A stretch of 22,920 nucleotides of DNA from a virus: the IMG/VR virus record IMGVR_UViG_3300025652_000585, positions 1 to 22,920 of that record; one strand, 5' to 3'. The position numbers and the translations under genes were made by a program. Shown here piece by piece: positions 1 through 12,664 of the stretch. The number at the start of each line of letters is the position of its first letter. The stretch's first letter is position 1. Under the pieces are notes generated by a model. The model did no database searches and had not been told where the DNA came from. It saw only the letters and a list, made by a program, of their open reading frames with translations.

Positions 1-43
1 CTTCCCTGTTACCAATAGATTGGTAGGTTTGATAAGTTGCCAT
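1..43 (-). CDS. Major capsid protein, N-terminal fragment (SU10-like, DUF5309)
   Basis: Only the first 14 codons are inside the window; the gene continues past the left edge. The visible peptide is MATYQTYQSIGNRE. The pattern of a short aromatic/Thr stretch followed by IGNRE is what I recall from the start of SU10-type (DUF5309) major capsid proteins, HK97-fold shell proteins of podoviruses. A Shine-Dalgarno (SD) AAGGAAA lies just upstream and overlaps the stop codon of the preceding scaffold-like gene. The order portal, scaffold, capsid is the usual one. Identification rests on a very short segment plus position. Confidence 0.65.
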   Translation of the reverse strand, partial: MATYQTYQSIGNRE

Positions 44-56
44 TGTTTAAATTTCC

Positions 57-1064
57 TTAAATAAAGTTTTCAAATAACTTAGCAGCATCACGCACTTTGC
101 CTGAGCCTTTAAGTTGTGCTTTTTGTCGCTTTTGTACATCATTGTTGCCTTGCTTAACTTTTGTCCCAGACTTAATCATCTTAGGAGCGTTAGCTACTTT
201 CTTCTGAACACCGGGTTTAGATTTCTGTAGCTTGTCGTACATGGCTGCCTTATGCAGTACAAGGACGTGACGTGAGTCATAGACCTGAGATAACTCTTGG
301 TCTGTAAAACCCACTGTTTTGCCGTAGTTACGAATCTCACTGCGGAGTTGTTCGCCTTTAGCTTTGTCTGAAAACTCTGGTAGGACTTCTGCAAGCTTTG
401 CTGATTCCTGAGCTATTTGTCTTTGCATGGCTTGAGCTCTATCCGCTTGTTGCTGTTGTGCAATGCGTTGTTGCTCGGCTCTTACTGCTTCCAATTGCTC
501 TTTCTTCTCGGTCATCTCTGCGACCTTAATTGCCCACCCTATCTGATCGTTTTCTTTCATACTTGCAATATCTTCTGGAGAATCGTTCATTGTTAGCAAC
601 TGTTCTACCGCTTGCAAGCGTTGAGCATATGTATCTCTAACCTGTTGAGCCTCAATAATAGCTTTAGCCTCAGCTTCTACAGCCTTCCGGTTTTCTGCTA
701 ACTCTTGAGTCTTTTTAGTGTAGTCTGCGCCGAGTTGATAGCCAGATACTAATTCATCAAAGGTAACCTCTTTCTCTTCACCTGATGCTTTAACGGTGAA
801 TTTCTGGGGTGCTTCTTCTTCAGTCTCTTCCTCAACTTCGTCAGAATCTTCAGCTTCATAAGTTTCCTCTTCCGATTGCTCTTCGGATTCTACTTCTTCT
901 TCTGATGCTTCTAAAGTTTCTTCTACAACTTCCTCTGATACGCTTTCTGAATTATCCTTTACAGGGTTCTCTTGGCTATCTAAGAAGCTTTCAAATCCAC
1001 TTACCGATTCACTTACTGTTAGATTGCCACTTCCCTGTTCGGGAGTCATGGTTTCATCACTCAT
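57..1064 (-). CDS. Probable capsid scaffolding protein
   Basis: A 335-residue protein with no catalytic motif. Residues about 25-85 are extremely acidic (runs of E, S and V). A basic segment follows, then a long Gln/Glu/Ala-rich stretch (about 120-225) predicted to be coiled coil, and a Lys/Arg-rich C-terminus. An acidic N-terminus, central coiled coil and basic C-terminal hook are typical of podovirus scaffold proteins, which bind coat protein through the basic tail and leave the prohead. Its place between the portal gene and the capsid start supports this. The start is the first ATG, with AAAGG nine bases upstream. Assigned from composition and position, not from a sequence match. Confidence 0.7.
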   Translation of the reverse strand: MSDETMTPEQGSGNLTVSESVSGFESFLDSQENPVKDNSESVSEEVVEETLEASEEEVESEEQSEEETYEAEDSDEVEEETEEEAPQKFTVKASGEEKEVTFDELVSGYQLGADYTKKTQELAENRKAVEAEAKAIIEAQQVRDTYAQRLQAVEQLLTMNDSPEDIASMKENDQIGWAIKVAEMTEKKEQLEAVRAEQQRIAQQQQADRAQAMQRQIAQESAKLAEVLPEFSDKAKGEQLRSEIRNYGKTVGFTDQELSQVYDSRHVLVLHKAAMYDKLQKSKPGVQKKVANAPKMIKSGTKVKQGNNDVQKRQKAQLKGSGKVRDAAKLFENFI

Positions 1065-1117
1065 TTTGTATTACCTTTTATTCCTCTACGGGAGGTTACC
1101 GATTAGTAGGCAAGTGC

Positions 1118-1348
1118 CTATAATATCTTCCATGCCTTATCTTTTATCTCGCCTGTTTGTGCGATAGATTCAAGATTAGACATAATCTCGTTAATGGATC
1201 TTATGCGTTGGTATGCGTACTCTCTTAGTTGTAGCTCTTCGTCACCAGAGTATTGGATCATTTGTAACTGTGTGTCTTTCATTTCTTTCATGACTTCCTG
1301 AAACTCTGGGCTTCCCAGTATGTTTTTCATTGCTTCCGATAAAGTCAT
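1118..1348 (-). CDS. Small helical protein between portal and scaffold
   Basis: A 76-residue protein, mostly charged and predicted helical, without membrane segments or recognisable motifs. Its ATG overlaps the portal stop codon in a TAATG junction, so it is probably translated by ribosomes finishing the portal gene. A short perfect inverted repeat (TAGGCA-AG-TGCCTA, 1107-1120) covers its stop codon, but no T-tract follows. Small genes at this place in podovirus head operons are often of unknown function; a connector or assembly role is a guess from position only. Confidence 0.7.
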   Translation of the reverse strand: MTLSEAMKNILGSPEFQEVMKEMKDTQLQMIQYSGDEELQLREYAYQRIRSINEIMSNLESIAQTGEIKDKAWKIL

Positions 1349-3504
1349 TACATACCTCTTTGAGTTACGTCATTGATCTTTTCTAATGCGTTCATAAGAA
1401 CCTTAGTTCGGTTTACTTCGCTAGCATCGTTATGCTTTTCAGCATCCATCATCAACTCTAGCTCTTTTAGTGCTAGCTCTTTAGTCTGTTGGATCTCTTT
1501 CATTTGCAACTCTAGTGCATCTTTCTGTGCCTTGAGTTCCATTTGCTCACGATCTAACTGGAGTTTAGCTTGGTCAGATTGCATCTTCATTTGAGCCTTT
1601 TGTATCTCTGCTTGTGCTAATGCTTCAGCAGCTTGTACTTGAGGATCAGACTGTCCTTGTGATGCTTGCTGTGCCATTTGTTGAGCTTGTTCTTCACTAA
1701 TATCCATAAGGAACTGTGAGTCATCTTTAAAGCCAGCCATGTTTACAAACTTAGCTAACGTGTCTCTGTATTGCTTGAGGTTAACTAAGGGGTTACCTAA
1801 GCCATATCCTTGGATGATCTGCTCTTGTTTCTCTAAGATCATTTGCATAGTAGCTAACTGTTCTTGCTTGCTACCAGTACCAAGACCTACGTTGACTGAG
1901 ATGTTGTATTCAGTTTTCCATTCTCTTGGATCAAACGGAACGTATTTGTTATTAACTCTGATGATTCTTTCTTTTTGTTGATACTTACATACCAAATGTA
2001 ATATACCTTTGAATAACGATGAAACACCTGTGTCTGCAAAGATACGTGCTATCAGTTCTAACTTACCTCCAGCTTGGCTCGTCATTGCTGCTACAGCGGT
2101 CGCTGTGACGTTTTGTAGAATATCTGGGTTAAGACCTTGCTGAGAGTCAGAAACGCCTGTACGCTTCGCTTGAACACTGTCTAAGTATTCCAACATAGGG
2201 AATGACTGGTTAGCGTTAGATGTTACTTGCATAGGTACTAAAGCATTTGGATTCTTAATTCTAATAACACCACCAGCAGTGGATGTTAGTAAGTCATCCA
2301 TATTGACCTGACCTTCTACTGCGCCAACTCTATAGTTGTTAGTAAGATAAAGATTATCTAACATCTGTCTTGTTATCGTTGACTTGATAAGCTGTATATC
2401 CATAGTTCTATCAGCCAGTGATTGACCAAAGAACTTATGTGGAATCGGAATAGGACATACTGAATGGAATGGAACGTAGTCACACTCTTCTTCTGATAGT
2501 ATCTCGTTAGAGGCGTAACATACACGTCTCATCTCAGCTATACCGTCACCATCTAAATCTGTCTTGATGTAGCACTCATAGTATTCTACTGTCTGCAATG
2601 CAGGCTCTAGTGCTTCCATATCAGTAGGCAGTTCACCACGAGAGTATCGTGCAATTCTTTCTGGAGAGAAGTCTAGTGAGTCACCAGTTGCTAGTGAGTA
2701 AACTAAGTCTTCGTCATAACCCATAGCCACTAACTCGGATCGTGTCATCATCTTACGGTGTGCAGTGAACTCTGAGTCTGCAATAGTTCTAGCTCTCTTA
2801 GAGATTAGGAACTCTTCAGGTGGTACGTTTTCTATTCTTACTTGACCTTTATCTACCGTTCTTGATAGTTTAACGTCATGTGTTCTGTTAACTAATGGAG
2901 GCACTTCCATCATCATTGGCATACCCATCTCATCCATCATAGGTTGACCAGTCATAGGATCAACAGAAGGCTGAGGTTCTTGCTCAATCATTACTTCATT
3001 AGTCTTTTGTGATACGACTTCAACATCCTCATCGGATGCTATCATTGCTAGCTCATCGTCATCAAGATCATAATACTTTTCTGTTGTTACGTCTTTAGAG
3101 TCATCCCAATAAGCTTTAACTACACCAACCTTTTGCATAAGACCGTCTTTAAACCAGTCGTGCATGATAGAAAAGCCTGGGTTATCTTTTTGGAATATAT
3201 GGTTTACATAAGCGGTAGCTTGTTCTGCTGTCTCTTCGTCACCTTCATTCACTGGCTCAAATACCACTGCATCACTTGTAGATGTAAAGATTTTCATAAG
3301 CTGAGGCATAGCACCATCTACTGCTTCCGCTACTTCCCCAGTTACTATCTGTGATCTACCAGGCACTTCATTGCCGTACTTCTCTCTAAGATAATACTCT
3401 AGTGCTTCTTGGCGTTGGTCAGTTGTTTCTGTCTCTAGGTATCCGATGGAGTCATCTATCTCAGATTCTAGGTACGCCTTTAATTTGTTTTCATCTATTG
3501 CCAT
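1348..3504 (-). CDS. Portal protein (P22-type)
   Basis: A 718-residue portal forming the dodecameric DNA channel at one capsid vertex, to which terminase docks. The N-terminal part (about 1-130) has the features I associate with the P22_portal family: an acidic start, a Y-LREKYGNEVPGRS-like segment, then VTGEVAEAVDGAMPQLMKIF. Residues about 190-210 form a Met-rich insertion. The C-terminal 110 residues are Gln/Lys/Glu-rich and predicted to be a long coiled coil, like the barrel region of P22 gp1. Length matches P22-type portals (about 700 residues). It follows the large terminase immediately (stop 3505, ATG 3504) and overlaps the next gene by one base. Confidence 0.93.
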   Translation of the reverse strand: MAIDENKLKAYLESEIDDSIGYLETETTDQRQEALEYYLREKYGNEVPGRSQIVTGEVAEAVDGAMPQLMKIFTSTSDAVVFEPVNEGDEETAEQATAYVNHIFQKDNPGFSIMHDWFKDGLMQKVGVVKAYWDDSKDVTTEKYYDLDDDELAMIASDEDVEVVSQKTNEVMIEQEPQPSVDPMTGQPMMDEMGMPMMMEVPPLVNRTHDVKLSRTVDKGQVRIENVPPEEFLISKRARTIADSEFTAHRKMMTRSELVAMGYDEDLVYSLATGDSLDFSPERIARYSRGELPTDMEALEPALQTVEYYECYIKTDLDGDGIAEMRRVCYASNEILSEEECDYVPFHSVCPIPIPHKFFGQSLADRTMDIQLIKSTITRQMLDNLYLTNNYRVGAVEGQVNMDDLLTSTAGGVIRIKNPNALVPMQVTSNANQSFPMLEYLDSVQAKRTGVSDSQQGLNPDILQNVTATAVAAMTSQAGGKLELIARIFADTGVSSLFKGILHLVCKYQQKERIIRVNNKYVPFDPREWKTEYNISVNVGLGTGSKQEQLATMQMILEKQEQIIQGYGLGNPLVNLKQYRDTLAKFVNMAGFKDDSQFLMDISEEQAQQMAQQASQGQSDPQVQAAEALAQAEIQKAQMKMQSDQAKLQLDREQMELKAQKDALELQMKEIQQTKELALKELELMMDAEKHNDASEVNRTKVLMNALEKINDVTQRGM

Positions 3505-4761
3505 TTATACGATCCATTGGTTATTTACAGTTAGAGGTTTATCCCATGAGGAAGCCTCGTTAGACATACCATCAACCACTGCACAAACATAACGCCAAGC
3601 ATCTGCACCATGACTGTATTCATCATGAAGCGGAGCACCAGGCTCTTGTGTTGTTTGGTTAATAGCTCTTCTATAATTCTTTAAGCATTCAATCAGTCGT
3701 TTGCTTTTATCAGCATCAAAGTAAGCTCTGCTAAAGGTCATCCTTGCAAGCTTGATGCCTGTCTCTATATCAGATCTAGGTATGATCTCAGTCTCCCATC
3801 CTAGCTTCTGCATAATCTCTTCAGCACTTGTACCGTACTTAAAGTCTTTGTTTCTAGCATCATGGGGTAAGTACATCGTTCCCCAGTTGTGGTTTAACTT
3901 TTTCAACTGATCAGAGTAGCTGTCTAGTGTCCTGTGATCGTCTTCTATGTAGTCAATCACTCGGATCTCCGATAGTGATCTCTGGCATAGGATAATAGAC
4001 ATAGAATCATTCCATCCTAAGTCCATAACCACGTGAGTCTTTAATAAAGCATCACTTGGTATGTTAGTTACACGTCCTTCCTCTTGCGCCATTCTTATCT
4101 CATTGTGATAGATAGCACCATCTGCTGCAGCTTTAGTGTCGCCTTCCCATATGTTTGCATAGTCTTCTGGGTTATGAGCCATGCACCTAGCACGTTCAAT
4201 CTCTAATACTTGAGGAAACCAAGGGTTATCAGAGTAGTTAACCTTCTCTATGCGAGCGTTAGGAGGCTTGTTAATGACGAAACGCTTATAAGTGTCATCA
4301 GTGTCCATGTAAGGGTTAAAAGTCACCCAGATCTCGCTGTTAGGCTTCCTGATCGTAGGTATTAATATGTCCCATGATCTCTTACTAATAACTTGAGCTT
4401 CTTCACACCATGTAACGTCAACACCTTCATAGGATTTAATTGACTCTACTGTGTTGCTTGCTAACCCTGAGAAAGTAAACTCTGTACCGTTGATACCTCG
4501 TATAGATGTTTCTATGACCTCGTAGAAGTCTCCAAGACCTAAGTCTTGTATCTGATCTTTTAATAGTGTGTGAACTGATTGCTTAATGGATCGTTGTACT
4601 TCCCTAGCGCAAAGAATGCGCATAGGCTTCTCTGTACCCATGATTAGCAGTGCTCTAGCAAAGTTCCATGACTTACCAGAACCTCTACCACCGTAAGCTA
4701 CCTTAAAGCGATGTGGTTCAAATAGCCATTTAAGTTTATTCGGAAACTTTTGATTCGACAT
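3505..4761 (-). CDS. terL: Terminase large subunit
   Basis: The ATPase/nuclease motor that cuts and pumps DNA into the prohead. A Walker A motif GGRGSGKS lies at about residues 25-32. A Walker B-like segment VDVTWCEEAQ and a coupling-type WVTFNP follow in the ATPase half. In the nuclease half the segment HVVMDLGWNDS supplies the first acidic residue, and HDEYSHGADAWRY near the C-terminus supplies the last. This is the Terminase_3 (PBSX/P22-like) layout at normal length (about 418 aa). I use the ATG at 4761; the codon just before it is a TTG that could also be read as a start. It overlaps the small-subunit gene by 26 bases, suggesting coupled translation. Confidence 0.95.
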   Translation of the reverse strand: MSNQKFPNKLKWLFEPHRFKVAYGGRGSGKSWNFARALLIMGTEKPMRILCAREVQRSIKQSVHTLLKDQIQDLGLGDFYEVIETSIRGINGTEFTFSGLASNTVESIKSYEGVDVTWCEEAQVISKRSWDILIPTIRKPNSEIWVTFNPYMDTDDTYKRFVINKPPNARIEKVNYSDNPWFPQVLEIERARCMAHNPEDYANIWEGDTKAAADGAIYHNEIRMAQEEGRVTNIPSDALLKTHVVMDLGWNDSMSIILCQRSLSEIRVIDYIEDDHRTLDSYSDQLKKLNHNWGTMYLPHDARNKDFKYGTSAEEIMQKLGWETEIIPRSDIETGIKLARMTFSRAYFDADKSKRLIECLKNYRRAINQTTQEPGAPLHDEYSHGADAWRYVCAVVDGMSNEASSWDKPLTVNNQWIV

Positions 4762-5059
4762 CAACGAACTCTATCTTGAGGTTGTTGCTTAGTGATCCAT
4801 CGGAAGAAGTTATATCTGTTTGGCTTTGGACCTTTCCTTCTAGCCTGTCTAAGACAATGTCAAGCGCCTTTGTGTCTCCCTCTTCAGCTTTTCTTACTAA
4901 AGCTTCCATCATGTTCCTAGCTCTTAACGCATCATCCTGAGTAACAATCCTGTTCAGGGTATCTTTTAATAACCTATTCTTTTTACTAGAGAAGTTGTTT
5001 CCTAGGCTTGCTTCTCTAGCCTTCTCTCTAGCTAATGCTAATTGTTCTTCTTTATCCAT
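4736..5059 (-). CDS. terS: Probable terminase small subunit
   Basis: A 107-residue charged, helical protein directly upstream of and overlapping the large terminase. Residues about 50-75 contain the pattern ALVRKAEEGDTKALDIVLDRLEGKVQ. The closing L-D-RLEGK--Q motif is shared with several small-terminase and DUF5681-type phage proteins. Small subunits recognise the packaging site and form a ring that regulates the large subunit. No classical helix-turn-helix is obvious in the first 40 residues. The call combines this motif with position. Confidence 0.7.
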   Translation of the reverse strand: MDKEEQLALAREKAREASLGNNFSSKKNRLLKDTLNRIVTQDDALRARNMMEALVRKAEEGDTKALDIVLDRLEGKVQSQTDITSSDGSLSNNLKIEFVDVESKVSE

Positions 5060-5096
5060 AATTTTGTAAAGCTCTTACGAGTTATTTACCCCTATG

Positions 5097-5456
5097 TTAT
5101 CTCATTTTTTGTGAACGAATCATCTCTCTTACTTTCTCTATATCAAAGCCTTGTGGCATTGGAGTATTACCTGAGTTTTGCATCTTTTGTTCTATCAGTT
5201 GTTCTGGAGTATGAAATGCTCCATCTATAACATTGTTTGGTAATGGCATATCTTTAAGATAACCCTCTTCAGGCATTTGATTCATTTGATTTACAACATC
5301 CATCATTCCACCATCAACAGATCCTTGATTTGGAGCAAAGTTTCTTGGGTCTCCAGAACTATATATTTGATCTACTGCACCTGGTTGTGCCATTGCTGAT
5401 CCACTTCCAGTAATCATTGCAATCAGTTGAGATAAGTAATCATTCATATTATTCAT
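5097..5456 (-). CDS. Unknown Met/Gln/Pro-rich protein
   Basis: A 119-residue protein rich in Met, Gln, Gly and Pro, with no recognised domain. It has a low-complexity middle (about 20-70), a PEEGYLKDMPLP segment, and a charged C-terminal helix (EKVREMIRSQK). It begins two bases after the stop of the DUF1289 gene, with the SD GAAGG inside that gene, so it belongs to the same late transcript. Position next to terminase suggests a structural or packaging accessory role; nothing in the sequence proves it. Confidence 0.6.
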   Translation of the reverse strand: MNNMNDYLSQLIAMITGSGSAMAQPGAVDQIYSSGDPRNFAPNQGSVDGGMMDVVNQMNQMPEEGYLKDMPLPNNVIDGAFHTPEQLIEQKMQNSGNTPMPQGFDIEKVREMIRSQKMR

Positions 5457-5457
5457 A

Positions 5458-5634
5458 TCATTTGCCTTCTTTTAGTTGTTGCATTCTATATAGTCTTGCA
5501 TCTCTTGATAACTTGAACCACTCATCAATATCTTCATAAGTTCTTTTACAGCTTATGCACTTTGGTGTTTTATCAGTATCATCTACTATCTTACATATTC
5601 CGTTACAAGGTGAGTCGTCTCTACCTTGCTCCAT
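5458..5634 (-). CDS. DUF1289-family small Cys protein
   Basis: A 58-residue protein with the DUF1289 signature: SPCNGICKI near the N-terminus, then a second Cys pair in PKCISCKRT, followed by a D-E-W segment and a charged helix. Four cysteines in two pairs suggest metal binding, probably zinc. DUF1289 proteins are widespread in proteobacteria and occur in phages; their function is not established. I start it at ATG 5634, nine bases after AGGA. That ATG overlaps the TAA of the preceding reading frame (TAATG), which supports both this start and the reality of the upstream frame. Confidence 0.8.
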   Translation of the reverse strand: MEQGRDDSPCNGICKIVDDTDKTPKCISCKRTYEDIDEWFKLSRDARLYRMQQLKEGK

Positions 5635-5859
5635 TACACACAATCCTGTTGCGCTTCAAACCAACGTCTAAGCTTTTCCATAGTTTCAGCAACATCGTCA
5701 GGCATACCTTCCTCTTTGTATTCTAATGCACCCTAAATTAATCAGTAAGTATTCCACTGGGTACTGATCACCTTCTTCAAATTCTATTAGCTCTTCGTAT
5801 AGCTCAATCCCTATGTTAAATCCCCAATAGATATAAACACTCCAGTTTGATCCATCCAT
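5634..5859 (-). CDS. Small acidic protein split by a +1 frame change
   Basis: Read from ATG 5859, the frame gives a sensible acidic protein (YWGFNIGIELYEELIEF...) up to LLINLG. It then degenerates into an Arg/Tyr tail and stops at TGA 5698-5700. The +1 frame entered at the GGG run (5731-5733) continues smoothly as ALEYKEEGMPDDVAETMEKL... and ends at TAA 5634-5636, which overlaps the next gene's ATG as TAATG. The shifted product is 74 residues. Removing one G from the run would restore a single frame. The cause could be a sequencing or assembly indel, a true mutation, or programmed +1 slippage. The start is supported by a TAATG overlap with the tiny gene upstream. Function unknown. Confidence 0.7.
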
Positions 5860-5912
5860 TACTTCTTACCTTTACCGTAACTTCTCTTACCTTTAGATTT
5901 GCACTTAGCCAT
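5859..5912 (-). CDS. 17-residue basic peptide, first gene of the late operon
   Basis: Encodes MAKCKSKGKRSYGKGKK, an extremely basic peptide with one Cys. It has an SD (AGGA, eight bases upstream) and its TAA overlaps the next ATG as TAATG, the same junction type used elsewhere in this genome. This makes it a convincing gene despite its size. It is the first gene after the 5930-5954 terminator. The composition would suit nucleic-acid or capsid binding, but no function can be assigned. Confidence 0.65.
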   Translation of the reverse strand: MAKCKSKGKRSYGKGKK

Positions 5913-5929
5913 AATATTTTTCCTATAAC

Positions 5930-5954
5930 AAAAAAAATCCCTCCGAAGAGGGAT
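5930..5954 (-). terminator. Intrinsic terminator just before the late genes
   Basis: On the minus strand a perfect 7-bp stem ATCCCTC/GAGGGAT closes a stable TTCG tetraloop and is followed by eight T residues. It sits only 18 bp before the ATG of the first late gene, leaving no room for another promoter, and downstream of the 6027-6055 promoter. Late gene expression must therefore pass through it, which suggests antitermination or attenuation. Confidence 0.9.
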
Positions 5955-6020
5955 CTAAACAAAGGAGGATGTTTAAGAATAAGGGCAGTGACGTTGTCAG
6001 TGAACGCACCTCTCCCCTAA
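5930..6020 (-). ncRNA. Short leader or small RNA between promoter and terminator (about 90 nt)
   Basis: If transcription starts about seven bases after the -10 box (near 6020) and stops at the terminator, the product is a discrete RNA of about 90 nt. It starts purine-rich (AGGGGAGAGG), contains an imperfect hairpin (CACTGAC-AAC-GTCACTG), a CCUCCUUU stretch resembling the anti-SD end of 16S rRNA, and the terminator hairpin. The 5' GAGAGG can pair with CCUCUU of the terminator stem, so an alternative fold is possible. It is comparable to lambda 6S RNA made from PR' without Q. The exact start is inferred. Confidence 0.5.
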
Positions 6021-6026
6021 GGCTCT

Positions 6027-6055
6027 ATTATACACGATTGTAGTTTGTAAGCCAA
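6027..6055 (-). promoter_or_regulatory. Probable late promoter (sigma70-type)
   Basis: TTGGCT (6055-6050), a 17-bp spacer and a perfect TATAAT (6032-6027) on the minus strand. It lies directly after the terminator that ends the early/middle transcripts and upstream of the leader terminator, so it is positioned to drive the late operon. The -35 matches TTGACA at four of six positions. Confidence 0.8.
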
Positions 6056-6066
6056 TCGCTAACCAT

Positions 6067-6096
6067 AAAAAAAGGGAGAGTCCTACAAGCTCTCCC
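6067..6096 (-). terminator. Intrinsic terminator ending the early/middle leftward transcript
   Basis: A perfect 7-bp stem GGGAGAG/CTCTCCC with a 9-nt loop, followed on the minus strand by seven T residues. The TAG of the 47-codon gene lies inside the loop. It insulates the late promoter from upstream transcription. Confidence 0.9.
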
Positions 6097-6226
6097 ATGT
6101 TAAATTTAAAACTTCATGCCATTCATCAAAGTTTGGCTCATGCCTTGGATCATTATCTTCTTTCTCTTGTTTGTCTGATTCAATCTCATTTTCATCTCCG
6201 TGATAATCTCCGTATTGCTTTTCCAT
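6083..6226 (-). CDS. Small acidic protein, 47 aa
   Basis: A highly acidic peptide rich in Glu, Asp, His and Trp, without a recognised domain. It has a strong SD (AAAGGAG, seven bases before ATG) and ends inside the terminator hairpin. It follows the 116-aa gene, from which it is separated by a GGTGGC hairpin. Strongly acidic small early/middle phage proteins are often inhibitors or DNA mimics, but nothing here shows that. Confidence 0.65.
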   Translation of the reverse strand: MEKQYGDYHGDENEIESDKQEKEDNDPRHEPNFDEWHEVLNLTWESL

Positions 6227-6231
6227 GTGTA

Positions 6232-6258
6232 TCTCCTTTGTAAAGGTGGCTTACGCCA
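6232..6258 (-). repeat. 3' flank repeat, copy A (GGTGGC hairpin plus RBS)
   Basis: On the minus strand, 27 bases cover the end of the 116-aa gene and the SD of the next gene. They match the end of the rightward 138-aa gene (12657-12683) with a single mismatch. The segment includes part of an 8-bp hairpin, AAGGTGGC-TTAC-GCCACCTT (6243-6262), without a T-tract. See the matching 5' flank at 6638-6672. Confidence 0.75.
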
Positions 6259-6601
6259 CCTTCAAATTAGTTAATGTTGCACGTACATCGTATTCAAAAC
6301 CATATTCAGGACTAAAGGCATGACCACTCATAACGCTACTTAATGTAAGTGCCATATATCCTTTAGCTCCAACGAAACCACTGTGCATCCAGAATTTTTT
6401 ATTGCGACCAGTTTTTATATTAGGAACATAAAACTCAACTACAGGCTCATAAAGCTCTTCTGCCCTAACTGAGCTCCAATGTTGTTGCATTTGCATAATA
6501 GCTAAATTGTATGGTGTTGCTGATATAAACTCTTCACGGCAAGCTAAGTCATATGCCTGATCTTCTGTGATATAAAGTCCGTGTATTCTGTTTGTATCCA
6601 T
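6251..6601 (-). CDS. Unknown 116-aa protein
   Basis: A soluble protein with no recognised motif; the C-terminal half has a beta-rich look (VVEFYVPNI, KFWMHSGFVG, YDVRATLTNL). It has its own strong promoter and an AAAAGGAG SD. The promoter-leader and the 3' hairpin/RBS are near-copies of those flanking the unrelated 138-aa gene at 12248-12664, so the coding segment looks exchanged between shared borders. It lies after the Q-like gene and before the late promoter. Confidence 0.7.
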   Translation of the reverse strand: MDTNRIHGLYITEDQAYDLACREEFISATPYNLAIMQMQQHWSSVRAEELYEPVVEFYVPNIKTGRNKKFWMHSGFVGAKGYMALTLSSVMSGHAFSPEYGFEYDVRATLTNLKVA

Positions 6602-6637
6602 TTTAAATCTCCTTTTGTTTAATTAACCTACAAAAGA

Positions 6638-6672
6638 ATTATCTTATATAGCAACTAAGTTGTCAACAACTA
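6638..6672 (-). promoter_or_regulatory. Promoter with palindromic operator
   Basis: TTGACA (6666-6661), a 17-bp spacer and GATAAT (6643-6638) on the minus strand, a near-consensus sigma70 promoter. The -35 box lies inside the near-palindrome AAGTTGTCAACAACTA (6657-6672), almost identical to the operator at 12176-12191. A Cro-type repressor bound there would block the -35. A separate perfect 14-bp palindrome, ATTTATGCATAAAT (6679-6692), sits just upstream, over the Q-like gene's stop codon. Confidence 0.82.
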
Positions 6673-6680
6673 AACAACAT

Positions 6681-7010
6681 TTATGCATAAATTCTTTTAG
6701 AGGCAAGCTTATCAAGGGATTCCAAGGCATCTTGGTATTTAAATTCTGAGGCAAATGGTTCTTTTGCACCTAAATGTTTAAAATAAATAGCTTCTCTTTG
6801 CTCTACAGGCAACCCTGTAATGATGGCATCAAGGATAATTACGTTACGTTTGTCACTATCATCTACCATTTCTTCAAATACATTCTCAGAAGATCCACCA
6901 GTGCTCATCATAATTGACTTGCTTGGAAAGCCTAGGCGGTGGTTGTCAAATCTCATCCACTTTGCCCAAGCATCTAATAAATAAAGTATCCTAGAAATAG
7001 GTAAGCTCAT
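6681..7010 (-). CDS. Probable Q-like late antiterminator
   Basis: A 109-residue protein with the pattern I associate with Q-type antiterminators (Phage_antitermQ-like): LLDAWAKWMR near the N-terminus, LGFPSKS, then an acidic VDDSD and an I-LDAIITGLP--QREAIY helix. Q proteins bind at a late promoter and modify RNA polymerase so it ignores terminators. The context fits: it is the last gene of the main early operon, after NinB and Ref as in lambdoid nin regions. About 1 kb downstream lies a promoter followed at once by a terminator and then the late genes. It overlaps the upstream gene as ATGA. The family call is from memory of the pattern; another small regulator is possible. Confidence 0.6.
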   Translation of the reverse strand: MSLPISRILYLLDAWAKWMRFDNHRLGFPSKSIMMSTGGSSENVFEEMVDDSDKRNVIILDAIITGLPVEQREAIYFKHLGAKEPFASEFKYQDALESLDKLASKRIYA

Positions 7011-7432
7011 TCGCCACCTTCGTAGATAGTGTTGCTGTAATTGCTAGAGTATTGCTCATAACCACTCTTACCACCAAAGCTAACATTAGGAAAATCCTCT
7101 GCCTTATATTTTTTACTGCTATTAATTTTAAAATCCTTAATGCCCTTACCATGATTAAAGTAATCAGTTAAAGCGCATCCCTTAGGTTTTTTGTAAGCAG
7201 TGTTTCTACTCATCTTCTCGCTAAGTAAAAGCTCAGTAGTAACTAATGTTCTAATAACCGCAAACACTGACTGATAATTCATACCAATTTCATTTGCAAT
7301 CTCTGCTGTGTGCTTCTTATCATCCCCAATAGTATCAAGAATTAAATCTGCTAACTTCGCCCTTTTAATCTTTCTACCATCATCAAATGTAAAAATATAT
7401 TCGTTATCTTGTGCTGCTAATCCTTCTGCCAT
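7007..7432 (-). CDS. Winged-helix DNA-binding protein
   Basis: A 141-residue protein. Residues about 25-75 look like a winged helix: KLADLILDTIG, then TAEIANEIGMNYQSVFAVIRTLV as the helix-turn-helix, then a hydrophobic wing strand. The C-terminal half is Lys/Ser/Tyr-rich and probably disordered. It has a strong SD (AGGAGG) and an ATGA overlap with the Q-like gene. It probably regulates transcription or aids replication; the target is unknown. Confidence 0.65.
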   Translation of the reverse strand: MAEGLAAQDNEYIFTFDDGRKIKRAKLADLILDTIGDDKKHTAEIANEIGMNYQSVFAVIRTLVTTELLLSEKMSRNTAYKKPKGCALTDYFNHGKGIKDFKINSSKKYKAEDFPNVSFGGKSGYEQYSSNYSNTIYEGGE

Positions 7433-7441
7433 AATATCCTC

Positions 7442-7762
7442 CTAAGATACATCCGTTATAAAAGACTTCCATCTACCTTCAACCTTTGCCCACCCTTCTA
7501 CTAACAACGTAAGGTTTGCGTTTCTAAGGTGAGGGGTATATTCACTGTCAGCTATTTTGTTTTCCCTTGCCTTCATATTTCCTTTTGTTGTTACTTGAAT
7601 AAAATGAAGCTCACCATCTTTAGATACTCCCAAGATATCAAAATTCCATAAATCTTGACGAATGCGTGCAAATGGATTCCATTTTTCTACTACTTGAACT
7701 AAAGCGTATTCACCACTTTCTTTCATGCGCTTAAGAGTTCTTTGTGTCGGTGATATCGCCAT
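7442..7762 (-). CDS. Putative PD-(D/E)XK nuclease-like protein
   Basis: A 106-residue protein with the arrangement VVEKWNPFARIRQDLWNFDILGV, then a strand ending in FIQVTT. This matches a common small phage family in which an Asp and a later Q-T-T/E-K strand form a PD-(D/E)XK-like core. The expected E-x-K is replaced by Q-V-T-T, so catalysis is uncertain. The SD AGGGAG is well spaced. It overlaps the preceding gene by 32 bases. A role in DNA processing is inferred. Confidence 0.5.
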   Translation of the reverse strand: MAISPTQRTLKRMKESGEYALVQVVEKWNPFARIRQDLWNFDILGVSKDGELHFIQVTTKGNMKARENKIADSEYTPHLRNANLTLLVEGWAKVEGRWKSFITDVS

Positions 7763-7967
7763 CAGCTCTCTCCCTTATTGATTTCTCATGATCTTCTTTT
7801 ACCATCTCATCTCGCCAAGCAACCTTTTCTATATGTTGCTTAACAACAGCTCCGTTTTGTTCAAACTGATCTGAGTTAGGCTTTGCATTAAATATACGAT
7901 CCCAGTTATCTTGTAACTTTTGATCGCTAACTAATCCTTTTGGTCTTCTACCACTACCTTTTCCCAT
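7731..7967 (-). CDS. Small basic/charged phage protein (MGKGSGRRP type)
   Basis: A 78-residue protein starting MGKGSGRRPKG and followed by a DNWDRIF segment, a combination I recall from many small phage proteins of unknown function. The rest is charged and probably helical. An SD GGAGA lies about ten bases upstream, and its 3' end overlaps the next gene. No function can be assigned. Confidence 0.65.
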   Translation of the reverse strand: MGKGSGRRPKGLVSDQKLQDNWDRIFNAKPNSDQFEQNGAVVKQHIEKVAWRDEMVKEDHEKSIRERADGDITDTKNS

Positions 7968-8019
7968 TGCAAGTTTTCTCCATTTTACAGTTTTTGTGAA
8001 TGTCTATCATAATTTACTC

Positions 8020-8265
8020 CTAGTAACTAATAATTCCCAATGGTGTTGATTCAATAACCGTTAGTTCATCACCATAAACAAATGTTTGACCAGTGTTGCT
8101 TGGAGTTATCTCTAACCCTTGTGAGCCGTTTTGGTCTACAATCACCCTAACTTCTTGTGCATTATCTACAATAGTTAACTGACCATCATCAGGACTAAAG
8201 TAATTTACTGACTCAGCTAAAGCTATTGGTACATAAAACAATCCAACTAATAATATTTTTTTCAT
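8020..8265 (-). CDS. Small exported protein
   Basis: An 81-residue protein with an N-terminal signal peptide: MKK, a hydrophobic core ILLVGLFYVPIA, and a likely signal peptidase I site after ALA (about residue 17). The mature part (about 64 residues) is acidic and beta-rich and lacks Cys, so it is not a lipoprotein. It has a strong SD (AAAGGAG). A periplasmic protein made early with the Mom and nuclease genes could act in superinfection exclusion or envelope modification, but that is a guess. Confidence 0.65.
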   Translation of the reverse strand: MKKILLVGLFYVPIALAESVNYFSPDDGQLTIVDNAQEVRVIVDQNGSQGLEITPSNTGQTFVYGDELTVIESTPLGIISY

Positions 8266-8278
8266 AATATCTCCTTTG

Positions 8279-8935
8279 TTAAAATTCCATGATTACTTGA
8301 GTGGATGGCTTATGAGTAATGTCATACCTATTTGTTTCTCCTTTAGGGTATGGCTGTACTTCATATTTAAGTTTGCTTCTTAAAATCTTTTTATCATTCT
8401 TTGTTCCATGAAATAAAATGTATCTATGTTTCCTTGATCTTTCAATATAATAAAAATCATCTCCGTGCTTTTCTTTAATAGATTCTAAAGTCATGCCATC
8501 ACTAATTGTTTTGCTATGCTTATGCTCTTGCCCTTTAATAGTCCAGTCAACTCTTTTTTCGGATAACCCTGTGTATAAAAAATTAGTTGCTTGGTAAACA
8601 TATCCTACATGACCTTGTGCATGATCAGCATAAGAAACTACTATTGTAGGCTTAGGCAATAGTTTAATAGAACCTGAAACTAACATACTTGCTTGATTTT
8701 TGTCGTTGTTCATTAAACAAAGTCTATTCAACTCTAATACTTTATCTGAATATTCTTTACCACAAATACCCATACATAAACTTGGAGAAGCAGGCATCCC
8801 GTAAGTAACAACGCCAATTAAAGCATCTCCATCATATAATCCAAATGCCTTCATAATATGAGGTATTCTTTTTGCGTAATGAACATTCAACAACCAGTCA
8901 TAAGTTTGGTTTGATTCAATAGGAATAATCTTCAT
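8279..8935 (-). CDS. mom: Mom-family DNA adenine-modification protein
   Basis: A 218-residue relative of phage Mu Mom, a GNAT-like enzyme that converts adenine in phage DNA to N6-(methylcarbamoyl)adenine and so blocks many restriction enzymes. Family features visible in order: HYAKRIP near residue 25, a GLYDGDALIGVVTYGMPASPS strand-turn, ELNRLCL, SMLVSGSIKLL and SYADHAQGHVGYVYQATNFLYTG. I prefer ATG 8935 (MKIIPI), which forms an ATGA overlap with the upstream stop, over the in-frame ATG 18 bases earlier. It lies in the early operon, as expected for modification before packaging. Mu mom needs the partner com for translation; no com-like zinc-finger gene is adjacent. Confidence 0.85.
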   Translation of the reverse strand: MKIIPIESNQTYDWLLNVHYAKRIPHIMKAFGLYDGDALIGVVTYGMPASPSLCMGICGKEYSDKVLELNRLCLMNNDKNQASMLVSGSIKLLPKPTIVVSYADHAQGHVGYVYQATNFLYTGLSEKRVDWTIKGQEHKHSKTISDGMTLESIKEKHGDDFYYIERSRKHRYILFHGTKNDKKILRSKLKYEVQPYPKGETNRYDITHKPSTQVIMEF

Positions 8936-9225
8936 AGTTGATCCAATACCCATTCTAGCATTTCACTTTCTTTTCCGTACTTTTCTATCCAAGTCTTTGG
9001 GCTTGTATGGTATCCATCTTCACCTTGATGATGATAGTGGCAAAGAGGTATTACCATAAAGTCATTGTTCTTTTGTCCCATCCCCATACCTTCTCTAATG
9101 TGATGAAGATTGCATGGAGGTGGATCAGATACATCATGGTGCTTACGACAAATGCAACAACCAAACTCTGACAATTTGTTTAGCCATTGACGTTCGTCTT
9201 TAGTTTTACTTTTCTTTTTACTCAT
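8932..9225 (-). CDS. Ref-like RecA-dependent HNH nuclease
   Basis: A 97-residue protein with a compact Cys/His nuclease core: FGCCICRKHH, then CNLHHIREGMGMGQKNN, then IPLCHYHHQGEDGYH. This is the layout of phage P1 Ref and related lambdoid proteins, in which Cys residues bind zinc and the HH pair lies in an HNH-type site. Ref nicks DNA in RecA-formed D-loops. I prefer ATG 9225 (or 9228) because AGGGA lies just before it; the earlier ATG 9249 lacks an SD. It sits directly after NinB, so a recombination role is likely. Confidence 0.8.
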   Translation of the reverse strand: MSKKKSKTKDERQWLNKLSEFGCCICRKHHDVSDPPPCNLHHIREGMGMGQKNNDFMVIPLCHYHHQGEDGYHTSPKTWIEKYGKESEMLEWVLDQL

Positions 9226-9586
9226 CATCTTCCCTAAATCTAAATCCATATTGCATCGCCCAACTCTGGATATTTTCTTGATACTCTACCATTTCTTTTG
9301 TATTGAGTTGTGATGTGCTTTTTACTTTAATAATAGTTTCACCGCCAACTTCAATCTCAGATGATAAAAATTTATATTTCATTAGCGCATCCATCTCATC
9401 TTCTTCGTAACCAATATAATCACCAATGGATCTTAACAGCTTCCAATACCTAGAATTTTGATCAGTGGTTCTGTTAAATTTATATTCACTCAACTGCATT
9501 CTCCAAGGTTTGGTAAAGTCTAACCCTTTTATCATGTCAATGATATTGTTTACGTTATCTTTTGTTATAGTTTTTTTGACGACCAT
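9218..9586 (-). CDS. ninB: NinB family recombination protein
   Basis: A 122-residue protein matching NinB (lambda Orf), which binds single-stranded DNA and helps load recombination proteins. Visible features: PWRMQLSEYKFNRTTDQNSRYWKLL, where the NRT-QN-YW pattern is characteristic, then IGYEEDEMDALMKYKFL and TSQLNTKEMVEYQENIQSWA. Length is a little below lambda's 146. The SD GGAGG is well placed. It overlaps the upstream 60-aa gene by 32 bases and the Ref-like gene by a few. A nin-like cluster ahead of a Q-like gene recalls lambdoid phages. Confidence 0.88.
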   Translation of the reverse strand: MVVKKTITKDNVNNIIDMIKGLDFTKPWRMQLSEYKFNRTTDQNSRYWKLLRSIGDYIGYEEDEMDALMKYKFLSSEIEVGGETIIKVKSTSQLNTKEMVEYQENIQSWAMQYGFRFREDDE

Positions 9587-9737
9587 TTTTTACCCTCCAT
9601 TGTCTAACTGATTCGTCCCAACCAGAAGATTTATAAACACCACCATCTTCTAGCTTTATACGATAATTAACATCCATACCAAATTCTTTAATTATCTCTT
9701 GAGTAAAACTTTTTAAATCTTTTTTATCATCTGACAT
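9555..9737 (-). CDS. Unknown 60-aa protein
   Basis: A small charged protein with a helical acidic start (SDDKKDLKSFTQEIIKEFG) and a basic end (RQWRVKNGRQKN). There is no recognised family. An SD AGGA precedes the start, and it follows the helicase gene by seven bases. It is probably part of the replication/recombination block; no function is visible. Confidence 0.55.
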   Translation of the reverse strand: MSDDKKDLKSFTQEIIKEFGMDVNYRIKLEDGGVYKSSGWDESVRQWRVKNGRQKNYNKR

Positions 9738-9744
9738 AATATTC

Positions 9745-10650
9745 CTATGCGTAAGTTAATGATTCTGGATTAAAATCAAAATTCCAATGACCCTCATACT
9801 CGTAGTGCCTTTGCTTAACTAAATACAGTTGTGCATCTGGAATATTGACAAAGTCCTCTTGACTAATTTGACCCAACTCTAAGCGTTGATCTCTGTGTGT
9901 TCTATGAACCACAAACACATTGTCCACAAGGTTTGTTATGTGAGTTGATCCTGATACAGAATGTTTAGTTGGAGCATCAGTGTATTCACTATTAGATTTT
10001 TTAGAATGAGCTACCACAAATATATGAATATTTAAATCTCTAGCAGCTACACAGATACGATCAATAAATTTCTTCTGCCCTTCGTAATCATCCTCAGCAA
10101 CTCCACACTTCATGAGTGAGTCCACAATCACAATCTTGCAATCGAGAACTTCCGCAGAATAGTAAATTACGCTAATTATGCTCTCAACTCCAACTGTGCC
10201 CTGCTGATCGTAAAGATAAAGCTTACCATCAAGGCTGTTAATCTTTTCCTCAATAAACTCATTGCTTGGCAATCTTGATCCAGACATTTGTCTTAGTAGT
10301 CTTGCTAATGAAGACCTTGGTTGCAACTCAAAAGATGCAAGCATGGTCTTGTAATCTTTTTCTAATAAACCTAAACTCATCTGGCTAAGTATCATTGACT
10401 TACCTGATCCTGAAAATCCAGAAACTATTGATGCTTCACCTGGACGAACTCTAAATCCATCGTAAGTTTTTTCCCACGGTAGTGTCACACCTTTATGGTA
10501 ATCACCATTAAAATATTCCTGTACCTGTTCTATATAGCTTGATGGATTGTGTATGTTTGTATGTTCATCGTTATCTCTTGTGGCAAAATAACTTTGAATC
10601 TCAGACTCCCTTACAATCATACTTTTTACTTTATCGTTTAGCGTACTCAT
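9745..10650 (-). CDS. DnaB/Twinkle-like replicative helicase
   Basis: A 301-residue RecA-fold ATPase of the DnaB/T7-gp4 class that unwinds the fork. Walker A GFSGSGKS lies at about residues 79-86, the catalytic Glu in ASFELQPR, Walker B in KIVIVDSLMK, motif H3 in IHIFVVAHSKK and H4 in SGSTHITNLVDNVFVVHR. It lacks a primase domain. A separate zinc-finger protein is encoded just upstream and overlaps it by 20 bases, so the usual primase-helicase fusion is split here and the TOPRIM domain is not visible. The SD GGGAGG is strong. Confidence 0.9.
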   Translation of the reverse strand: MSTLNDKVKSMIVRESEIQSYFATRDNDEHTNIHNPSSYIEQVQEYFNGDYHKGVTLPWEKTYDGFRVRPGEASIVSGFSGSGKSMILSQMSLGLLEKDYKTMLASFELQPRSSLARLLRQMSGSRLPSNEFIEEKINSLDGKLYLYDQQGTVGVESIISVIYYSAEVLDCKIVIVDSLMKCGVAEDDYEGQKKFIDRICVAARDLNIHIFVVAHSKKSNSEYTDAPTKHSVSGSTHITNLVDNVFVVHRTHRDQRLELGQISQEDFVNIPDAQLYLVKQRHYEYEGHWNFDFNPESLTYA

Positions 10651-11044
10651 AACCCTCCCTTATTAATCTGACTGACTCTAACAATCTCTTACGGTCACCT
10701 TCTTCTAAAGGTTTACCTTGAGCAAGTTCAGCTGCAACAACTGCTACCAAAAGAACTTCATCTTGTAAACTTTTAAGTACCGCAAAAGGATTATATATTT
10801 TTCCTAATGGTTTTAATAGGTCTTTTCTTTCTGGGACAATATCATCCAGATCTAAACCTACTGCTCCAAGAATAGATGTAATGTCACATCCTGCAAAACA
10901 GTGCATAAGAACTCTACCATCATCAGCAAACTTTATAGAAAGACTTGCTAACCGATCTTCATGCGCTGGACACAAGCAGTTGTAAGAATTACTTTTAGTA
11001 GTTTTACTTACCTTACTAAAATGTGAAAGTAGCGAAATGTTCAT
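10631..11044 (-). CDS. Primase-type zinc-finger (CHC2-like) protein
   Basis: A 137-residue protein. Residues about 20-52 form a zinc-binding module, CLCPAHEDRLASLSI...VLMHCFAGC, with the C-x2-H...C-x4-C spacing of phage primase zinc fingers. The remainder is helical and has no TOPRIM or RNA-polymerase core. It presumably recognises template or supports priming with the helicase encoded next to it; a host or distant phage primase core would be needed. The start sits directly after a GAGGAGAGGAG tract that also encodes the preceding protein's repeats. Confidence 0.8.
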   Translation of the reverse strand: MNISLLSHFSKVSKTTKSNSYNCLCPAHEDRLASLSIKFADDGRVLMHCFAGCDITSILGAVGLDLDDIVPERKDLLKPLGKIYNPFAVLKSLQDEVLLVAVVAAELAQGKPLEEGDRKRLLESVRLIREGYEYAKR

Positions 11045-11399
11045 CTCCTCTCCTCTCTTCTACTCTCTTCTCCTCTACTCTCCTCTCCTCTACTCTAGAC
11101 GAGGTATATACTTTGTCTAGGATTATCCAGTTACCTAGTGATTTTAGGCTACTTTCAATGTCTTCAACTGACCTTCTTAGTCTAAAAGATATAACTTTTA
11201 TTTCTGGAAGTTCTCCGTTGTGTTGACTAGCTAAACACCATAGCTCAATCAGTGCTAATTTATTCTTATCACTTAGCTCTGCATAATCTACATCATTAAG
11301 AAGATCACCTCCGTACAACTTAAACCAATGCATCTTTTTATTGCCTTTGGGATTTTTAAGCTTGTAGTGCTGATGCCTATCCCAGTTCTTAATTTTCAA
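11016..11399 (-). CDS. Phage replication protein N-terminal-like
   Basis: A 127-residue protein beginning KIKNWDRHQHYK, then WFKLY, DLLNDVDYAELSDKNKLALIELWCLASQHNGELP and an RLRR helix. This resembles the N-terminal domain of phage initiator proteins, with a winged-helix flavour. The C-terminus is a tandem VEERR-type repeat and then GDEHFATFTF, so it looks shortened relative to full initiators. I choose TTG 11399: it overlaps the upstream stop as TTGA and has GAGGAG seven bases before it. The GTG three codons earlier has the SD directly against it. It is positioned like lambda O, after cro. Confidence 0.6.
   Translation of the reverse strand: MKIKNWDRHQHYKLKNPKGNKKMHWFKLYGGDLLNDVDYAELSDKNKLALIELWCLASQHNGELPEIKVISFRLRRSVEDIESSLKSLGNWIILDKVYTSSRVEERRVEEKRVEERRGDEHFATFTF
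11049..11093 (-). repeat. Three tandem 15-bp purine-rich repeats
   Basis: On the minus strand three copies of GTAGAGGAGAGGAGA-like units (copies 2 and 3 each differ by one base from the first or from each other's pattern) encode VEERR, VEEKR, VEERR. The tract holds many AGGAG motifs and runs up to the primase ATG. It is almost pure purine on one strand. It could be an iteron cluster inside a replication gene, as in lambda O, or a simple expansion. Confidence 0.8.
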
Positions 11400-11590
11400 A
11401 ATAAACACTCCTCAGTTTTATCCCACCAATCTGGTAAGGATGATTTTTCTTTTCTTGGTCTTTTTGCTACCTGAATAATTTTACAATCAGGTTTGTTCTG
11501 ACAAAACCATACTGCTTCTTTTTTACTTTGGAAAGCCATTAATGGATCTCCAGTAAAATCTAAAACTTGATGTGTAAATAATCTAGTCAT
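11396..11590 (-). CDS. Unknown 64-aa protein
   Basis: A small basic protein with two Cys residues (FCQNKPDC) and an FQSKKEAVWF segment; the C-terminus ends in Trp/Glu-rich PDWWDKTEE. No family is recognised. Its ATG lies inside the last codons of the Cro-like gene (eight-base overlap), and its stop overlaps the next gene's TTG start. By position it corresponds to lambda cII, between cro and the O-like gene, but it has no helix-turn-helix. Confidence 0.55.
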   Translation of the reverse strand: MTRLFTHQVLDFTGDPLMAFQSKKEAVWFCQNKPDCKIIQVAKRPRKEKSSLPDWWDKTEECLF

Positions 11591-11750
11591 CTAATTTTAA
11601 AATTGTCTTAACCTGAAACTGACGAACCTTTGGTATTTCTGCATTAGGAGTTTGCGCCCACTTAGATACAGCCTGAACTGATACATCTAATTCCTTGGCT
11701 AACTCTCTCCGACTGTTGTTAAACATTTTTATTACTTCTTTATATTTCAT
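11583..11750 (-). CDS. cro: Cro-like repressor (55 aa)
   Basis: A 55-residue protein with a single helix-turn-helix: RRELAKELDVSVQAVSKWAQ at about residues 14-33, followed by EIPKVRQFQVKTIL. This matches P22 Cro-type repressors, in which a short helix precedes the turn, the W ends the recognition helix, and an IP--R-Y/F-Q-- segment follows. Length is normal for Cro. SD AAAGGAA is five bases upstream. It lies directly after a terminator and first in the main early operon. Likely targets are the AAGTTGT-N2-ACAACTT palindromes over the -35 boxes at 6657-6672 and 12176-12191. No CI partner gene is visible. Confidence 0.82.
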   Translation of the reverse strand: MKYKEVIKMFNNSRRELAKELDVSVQAVSKWAQTPNAEIPKVRQFQVKTILKLDD

Positions 11751-11765
11751 AAAATTCCTTTAATT

Positions 11766-11791
11766 AAAAAGAGGTGGCGCTGACCACCTCT
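11766..11791 (-). terminator. Intrinsic terminator between the 88-aa gene and cro
   Basis: On the minus strand an 8-bp stem AGAGGTGG/CCACCTCT with a 6-nt loop is followed by T residues (TTTTT with the last stem base). It lies directly before the cro SD, leaving no room for a separate promoter, so cro and the whole early operon depend on read-through or antitermination here. Confidence 0.75.
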
Positions 11792-11797
11792 AAGTTG

Positions 11798-12064
11798 TTA
11801 AGCTATCTCTAGTTGATTAATTATGTTTCCTTCTACATCTATATAATTTAACTCTAAACAAGCTTCCAAGATTTGTTCAGAGCCAATCCCTACCATCTGA
11901 TTATAATTTTCTTGAACAAAAATTAAAACTTGTTCTGTTTGATCGCTGGTTAGTGTTGAATAAGCTTCAACACCATTCTTCCATTTTTGATCAAGAACCC
12001 AATTTACATCATCTCCTGTCCATACTAAAGTTACTTCAAAATTTGAATCTTTTTTACCTGACAT
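11798..12064 (-). CDS. First gene of the leftward early operon, unknown, 88 aa
   Basis: An acidic 88-residue protein (Trp-rich N-terminal third: VTLVWTGDDVNWVLDQKW) with no recognised motif. Its RBS context (AGGAGATTTAAA before ATG) is the same as that of the 116-aa gene at 6251-6601. It is transcribed from the promoter at 12110-12138 and followed by a terminator. By position, a first early product before a terminator, it could help polymerase pass that terminator as lambda N does, but it lacks the Arg-rich RNA-binding motif of N. Confidence 0.7.
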   Translation of the reverse strand: MSGKKDSNFEVTLVWTGDDVNWVLDQKWKNGVEAYSTLTSDQTEQVLIFVQENYNQMVGIGSEQILEACLELNYIDVEGNIINQLEIA

Positions 12065-12138: not shown

Positions 12139-12175
12139 ACACTTTAGTGAAATAATTATTTAAAATAAATGAAAT

Positions 12176-12210
12176 AAGTTGTTGACAACTTTGTTTCAAT
12201 AAAGGATACT
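12176..12210 (+). promoter_or_regulatory. Rightward early promoter with palindromic operator
   Basis: TTGACA (12182-12187), a 17-bp spacer and GATACT (12205-12210). The perfect inverted repeat AAGTTGT-TG-ACAACTT (12176-12191) covers the -35 box. The following leader (TTCTTTTGTAGGTTAA, then a TAAACAA-rich SD region) is nearly identical to that downstream of the 6638-6672 promoter, so both are probably controlled by the same repressor, most simply the Cro-like protein. Confidence 0.8.
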
Positions 12211-12247
12211 TCTTTTGTAGGTTAAATAAACAACAAAGGAGTTAGAC

Positions 12248-12664
12248 ATGAAATACCACATTTTACAAATTAGTTTAACAGATGCAGAGGTAGATTTAAT
12301 TAACGAAAAAGGTCATGATGCTGTTGCAAGACACGCTAGACATTTAAACGAAGACATTTTAATACATGACTATGATCATGTTGCAGACATTGAAGCTGAT
12401 AGCCTAGCTGAAGTAGTAGATCTTGGTAACGCTGACATTGATCGTTACAATCATCCACAAATTAATATTGTTATAGATAATCCAGAGCAAAGTCTTGCTA
12501 GTATTAGTGAAGGTGACATTATTATAAATAGCAAAACTCTTAAATGTTATTACGATACTGGGTACAAGTTTATAGAATTAGTTGTACGCCCAGAAGAGTT
12601 AGAAGGATTGCTTTTTAGCAGTCCTACTAGCAAAGCTATTATTATGGAAGAGGCAATGGCGTAA
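12248..12664 (+). CDS. First rightward early gene, unknown acidic 138-aa protein
   Basis: A 138-residue acidic protein with no recognised domain and no helix-turn-helix, so it is unlikely to be a CI repressor despite its divergent position. It is rich in Asp, Glu, Ile and His. The AAAGGAG SD is eight bases upstream. Its promoter-leader and its 3' end are near-copies of the flanks of the 116-aa gene at 6251-6601, although the proteins are unrelated. Confidence 0.7.
   Translation: MKYHILQISLTDAEVDLINEKGHDAVARHARHLNEDILIHDYDHVADIEADSLAEVVDLGNADIDRYNHPQINIVIDNPEQSLASISEGDIIINSKTLKCYYDTGYKFIELVVRPEELEGLLFSSPTSKAIIMEEAMA

Follow-up and report, generated by a model that had tools for sequence, protein, structure and literature searches.

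A probable lambda-type PR'/tR'/Q switch for late genes, with a candidate Q21-like antiterminator, in an environmental virus of bacteria

Results

The DNA analysed here (the window) is a 22,920-nt fragment of IMG/VR record IMGVR_UViG_3300025652_000585, an environmental-sample virus of bacteria. Its early genes are arranged in the order Cro-like gene (P22_Cro, over cut-off), replication genes, NinB (over cut-off) and Q, the same as in the right operon of lambda. The Q-like gene, an ORF of 109 aa at 6681-7010 of the minus strand (stop codon included), lies at the end of the early region and upstream of a promoter-terminator block (PR'/tR'), from which it is separated by a cassette in the window type. 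All features of the block are on the minus strand. Behind it, on the same strand, come a lysine-rich ORF of 17 aa read from the sequence (MAKCKSKGKRSYGKGKK, 5911-5858), a listed ORF of 53 aa (5859-5698) whose start overlaps the stop of the former, a probable terminase small subunit (107 aa, 5059-4736; weak, phrog_2538, E 0.067), the terminase large subunit (4764-3505, profile matches) and, both by PHROG profile match, the portal protein (3504-1348) and the scaffold protein (1064-57). A gene for a Mom-family protein was also seen at 8279-8953 (PF25680, E 3.1e-39). At 11791-11770 a strong terminator separates the Cro-like gene from the first leftward early gene (12064-11798), so that read-through may be needed in the early operon as well.

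It had been claimed that the virus has no visible RNA polymerase gene and is probably marine. The former was borne out, since no single-subunit (T7-type) RNA polymerase was found in any of 10 records (the window plus nine related ones), while the phage T7 control was positive. The latter is not readable from sequence; the relatives that have names comprise one coastal marine phage, one spring-water virus and one sludge virus. The T7-type polymerase aside, no integrase was found in the 10 records (14/14 controls positive), so that these phages, of which the window is a 22.9-kb fragment, may be strictly lytic.

Between Q and the late genes, a sigma70 promoter was found to lie between two intrinsic terminators, all three in a row, as proposed in the earlier note. 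Terminator 1 (6096-6067), recognized by reading the sequence and by folding (-13.1 kcal/mol, z -2.46), has a GGGAGAG/CTCTCCC stem, a 9-nt loop and seven U, and is predicted to end the cassette/early transcript upstream of PR'. It is absent from our terminator scan of positions 1-12000 because that scan allows loops of at most 8 nt. The promoter scan placed the -35 box of PR', TTGGCT, at 6055-6050 and the -10 box, TATAAT, at 6032-6027; the 17-nt spacer between them (TACAAACTACAATCGTG, 6049-6033) is the predicted place for a Q-binding element. With 10/12 consensus matches, TTGGCT-17-TATAAT (6055-6027) is surpassed in positions 1-12000 by one of 30 promoter hits (11/12, 6666-6638 minus). The 30 promoter-like sites are no excess over shuffled sequences (34.2 +/- 5.9), so PR' by itself is not significant and comparative evidence is needed. 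Terminator 2 (tR', 5956-5930), found by scan and folding (-12.8 kcal/mol, z -3.65), has a stem at 5956-5935, a UUCG loop and eight U (5937-5930), and terminator-like sites in 1-12000 are in excess (13 versus 6.0 +/- 2.5 expected). Transcription from PR' would probably start at 6020-6018, giving a predicted terminated leader RNA of about 85-90 nt (6020-5930). The last U of terminator 2 is 18 nt from the ATG of the first late ORF (5911), again as claimed. The additional claim that no other promoter is left was too strong, as weak 9/12 sites lie at 5511-5483, 5146-5119 and 5070-5041. The PR' block is also present in three of five close-relative records (L003, 100%; L012, 99%; L005, 94% identical); for the other two, L011 and L013, the loci extend just 141 and 456 nt beyond the Q match.

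The distance from the Q stop to the -35 box of PR' is 625 nt, not about 1 kb as first estimated, and it is occupied by a cassette with its own promoter and two minus-strand ORFs. Q therefore does not end the early operon as had been thought: ORFs of 116 aa (6601-6251, from the ORF list) and 47 aa (6226-6083, read from the sequence, with its stop codon inside the loop of terminator 1) come after it. The 116-aa ORF had no Pfam or PHROG match, and other ORFs stand in its place in close relatives. Comparison of relatives L002/L012, L004/L013 and L005 showed conserved cassette flanks around differing ORFs; L005 is without terminator 1. The cassette promoter, found directly after Q by the scan (TTGACA-17-GATAAT, 11/12, 6666-6638), nearly duplicates, on alignment, the rightward early promoter at 12180 on the plus strand, and a 13-mer is common to 12179 plus and 6669 minus. 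A palindrome, AAGTTGT-TG-ACAACTT, lies whole or mostly over the -35 at 6600-6680 and 12165-12252, and its presence at both promoters marks it as a possible operator of the Cro-like protein (11750-11583).

Three relatives of the 109-aa protein were found among phage records: gp37 of Methylophilales phage Venkman ('antitermination-like protein', 43.5% identity), the 'phage antitermination protein Q' of MW202481 (41.3%) and gp41 of EBPR podovirus 1. From IMG/VR, relatives were taken in three overlapping sets (80 of 295 found, 80 of 441 and 80 of 315), whereas a scan of bacterial and archaeal genomes gave 61 pattern matches and no relatives. Alone, the window protein had no meaningful Pfam, NCBIfam or PHROG match. 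Among 27 aligned members of its family, 13 matched PF06530 (Phage_antitermQ) weakly (best 2.3e-4), 6 matched PHROG 79 'anti-termination protein Q-like' (best 0.027), 6 phrog_248 'transcriptional activator' (best 0.0052) and 7 Sigma70_r4_2 (best 0.036). In PMC7171158, PF06530 is described as the family of phage-21 Q. In a genome-wide search it was over its curated cut-off in 0/10 records and had E under 1e-3 in 3/10. The window protein is thus not a formal member of the Q21 family, having no match of its own and relatives below the cut-off.

The AlphaFold2 model of the protein (pLDDT 73.6, pTM 0.65, weak at residues 24-45) was aligned by VIA with 183 chains, and the best three were all phage-21 Q: 6p18 (Z 6.7), 6jnx (Z 6.4) and 6p1a (Z 5.3), although a Z under 8 may reflect a common helical arrangement. 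These alignments cover 90-98 residues (1/3-109 of the model). With Foldseek against the PDB, no match had E under 1e-3 and phage-21 Q was not among the best 50 matches listed; a search of PDB sequences with the Q alignment returned nothing beyond repeat-protein and other chance matches. Below phage-21 Q in the VIA ranking, and likewise in Foldseek, the matches are sigma region 4 domains. On sequence and model together, the ORF product is a short, divergent candidate for a Q21-like antiterminator.

The earlier note had asked whether the promoter-terminator pair is conserved in relatives. From 244 loci with a Q match, 121 distinct 170-nt downstream sequences were obtained, of which 4 were too short and 117 were counted. 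A promoter plus terminator pair beginning no more than 80 nt from the Q stop was found in 84/117. The 33 misses comprise 3 that have the pair by eye (L054, L237, L340), 4 of the window type and 26 with another layout. Away from Q, pairs occurred in the Q-bearing loci at 0.035 per kb of strand (35 in 1002.8 kb), a background measured at stricter settings than the 84/117 count; by chance, about 0.03 pairs are expected in 915 nt beside a Q gene. Three of 45 pair hits (L015, L016, L038) were weak and 750 nt away, and were excluded from support. In many relatives the TGA stop of Q sits within TTGACA, and in 11/21 usable representative leaders the Q stop codon and the -35 box overlap (distance -4). 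Q and terminase share a strand, with terminase downstream, in G001, G002, G005, G006 and MW202481. In G003 and Venkman, records with the other layout, terminase is on the opposite strand; in Venkman other genes come after Q, and no promoter-pause-terminator triple was found in the whole genome (L010).

The phrog_248, Sigma70_r4_2 and region 4 fold matches given above would also suit a quite different role, in which the Q-like protein is an activator whose sigma-region-4-like helix-turn-helix recruits polymerase to PR', the terminator being merely leaky and strong initiation leading to read-through. We regard this as very unlikely. The PR' boxes are near-consensus already (12/12 in L047 and L008), so that an activator is little needed; terminator sequence varies between groups, yet even unrelated sequence versions have a strong terminator immediately in front of the first late ORF; and PMC6606751 describes the helix-turn-helix of phage-21 Q itself as resembling sigma region 4.

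A consensus pause signature was found in the window leader 21 nt after the -10 box: G-11 (6016), G-10 (6015), T-3, G-2, C-1 (6006) and G+1 (6005) (6016-6005, minus strand). The form GG.......TGCG at 20-22 nt after the -10 box was first noticed in the window, MW202481 and EBPR podovirus 1. The reduced signature G-11 G-10 ... Y-1 G+1, with -1 at 19-22 nt after the -10 box, is present in 23/25 distinct leaders including the window, in a set from which L002 was left out and to which L005, L340, L237 and L054 were added by hand. The exceptions are L078, which has it at 23, and L052, which is without G-11. Shuffled leaders would have it at a rate of 0.2-9% per leader. Without the groups that had suggested it (L003, L005, L210, L288) the count was 19/21; the leaders are related to one another and represent perhaps ten independent groups. 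In 24 aligned leaders, the only invariant columns are G-10 and G+1. We take G-11 G-10 ... Y-1 G+1 to be the consensus elemental pause of RNA polymerase. By sequence, the leaders thus carry a predicted promoter-proximal consensus pause at a fixed distance. The existence of a consensus pause is described in PMC6336406.

The hexamer GGTGCG is not universal: among 80 loci, those of the window type alone had it near Q, and it is also present in MW202481 and EBPR podovirus 1. A pattern scan of IMG/VR with TATAAT-N7-13-GGNNNAGGTGCG returned at least 119 stretches; none of the 80 loci examined had a Q-like ORF, and a -35 or a terminator was present in 15. Taken by itself, the pattern therefore yields mainly chance hits.

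Known Q proteins depend on two DNA elements, one that binds Q and one that is -10-like. No -10-like element was found in the window leader (best match 2/6, GAGAGG); in other leader groups GATAAC, GATAGT or GATAAT lies within the pause signature, unlike in HK97, where such an element precedes it. The PR' spacer contains an imperfect repeat, TACAAA/TACAAT, 7 nt apart (p 0.04, a weak test). Summed over 25 leaders, the direct-repeat score was 93 versus 81.3, with 0.5% of shuffles as high, a figure inflated by related leaders.

Plain attenuation would need no antiterminator: with a partly efficient terminator, the late genes would be reached by constitutive read-through or from weak downstream promoters, for which the 9/12 sites offer candidates, and 26/117 Q homologues are without an adjacent pair. 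This explanation seems very improbable to us, as it leaves unexplained both the tight placement of the pair after Q in 84/117 and the conserved pause.

The leader itself (6018-5934) folds better than 199/200 shuffles (z -2.78), and a hairpin loop at 5976-5950 contains UCCUCC, complementary to strong Shine-Dalgarno sites of early genes. An Rfam search gave no match. As a conserved feature an early RNA hairpin was rejected, with z under -1 in 13/25 leaders and a mean z of -1.17; the window type and most of the largest leader group do not have it. An anti-Shine-Dalgarno small RNA, suggestive in the window, was rejected too, the property not being enriched in other leader groups (group medians 0.036 to 0.639). 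Between pause and terminator, a TCTCCGTA-like motif is conserved 28-63 nt after the -10 box in L284, L280, L249, L017, L210 and others, and is absent from the window leader; its complement, that is TACGGAGA targets, was not located at start codons. That the block is mainly a small-RNA gene, its terminated leader acting on early or host messages, as has been reported of StxS of Stx phages, and late transcription being a separate matter, would fit the folding of the leader and the possible pairing of its UCCUCC loop, but is extremely improbable given the medians and the start-codon result.

Discussion

We propose that the late genes are controlled by a switch of the lambda PR'/tR'/Q kind with Q21-like antitermination, and give this reading a probability of roughly 0.8. 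The PR'/6S RNA/Q arrangement suggested by the earlier note is supported by a protein family that reaches PF06530, by the predicted fold, by the pair beside Q, by the conserved pause and by the lack of a detected RNA polymerase gene. Starting from what is directly observed, namely the anatomy of the sequence, conserved next to Q homologues, a distant kinship to phage-21 Q and no RNA polymerase gene detected, the switch would operate as follows. Host RNA polymerase with sigma70 would start at PR', near 6020-6018, and pause about 13-15 nt into the transcript at the consensus pause. Without the phage protein, transcription would stop at tR' (5956-5930), leaving a short leader RNA. Once the early gene 7010-6681 is expressed, its 109-aa Q21-like product would bind promoter DNA and be loaded onto the paused polymerase, which would then be resistant to tR' and later terminators. 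Read-through would lead to transcription of the packaging and head genes (terminase, portal, scaffold). Counting against a Q switch are the window protein without a Pfam match and its relatives below the PF06530 cut-off, the 26/117 homologues without an adjacent pair and the missing Venkman triple, the 625 nt and cassette between Q and PR', the lack of a -10-like element in the window leader together with the weak spacer repeat test, and the structural comparisons (Foldseek without E under 1e-3, Z under 8).

The pause signature, 13-16 nt into the transcript, is kept almost without exception while no -10-like element precedes it; its fullest form (GG.......TGCG) is that of the window type, which has no -10-like match. 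This may suggest that the Q-type antiterminator of aquatic phages is loaded at a sequence-encoded (elemental) pause, not a sigma-dependent one, a tentative idea that we consider rather unlikely.

In the open literature we found no description of a Q/PR'/tR' switch in aquatic podoviruses, and 'antitermin' is absent from the text of the Venkman and OM43 phage papers (PMC9004378, PMC8163748, PMC10580990). Nor did we find there an explanation of how abundant aquatic podoviruses without their own RNA polymerase transcribe their late genes; a Q-type switch, present beside most homologues in IMG/VR, would supply a testable model. The proposed Q21-like late switch is ordinary in kind and wide in occurrence. 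It would broaden the range of Q antitermination far past the lambdoid phages of enterics, and it would offer many natural promoter/protein pairs for asking how Q proteins read DNA sites and which pause is needed.

Among known systems, the Q/PR'/tR' switch of phage 21 resembles the window in that the relatives of the window protein reach PF06530 and phage-21 Q is the best VIA fold match, and in its anatomy, with a terminator shortly past the promoter and the late genes behind. It differs in the length of Q (109 aa in the window versus 147-156 residues in phage-21 Q chains); moreover, the window's relatives lack a PF06530 score over the cut-off, its spacer lacks a demonstrated TGAGCA-like direct repeat, and its leader lacks a -10-like element. 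HK97 has the same succession of Q gene, promoter (TTGACT-17-TAAATT), terminator beginning 34 nt after the -10 box, and next genes; indeed HK97 and HK022, with lambda-type Q and PR', share a compact anatomy equal to that of the window's relatives. However, their Q is about 207 aa long and of another family, their leader has the -10-like AACGAT directly before GG, which the window leader has not, and lysis genes come first there, whereas packaging genes come first in the window. At the alpB promoter of Pseudomonas aeruginosa, as described in PMC9371919, the antiterminator AlpA has its binding site between -35 and -10; it is loaded at a sigma-dependent pause and lets transcription pass a downstream terminator. 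That system serves a cellular cell-lysis operon and has a -10-like CACGAT, but it is like the proposed switch in having an antiterminator between -35 and -10, a promoter-proximal pause and a terminator downstream.
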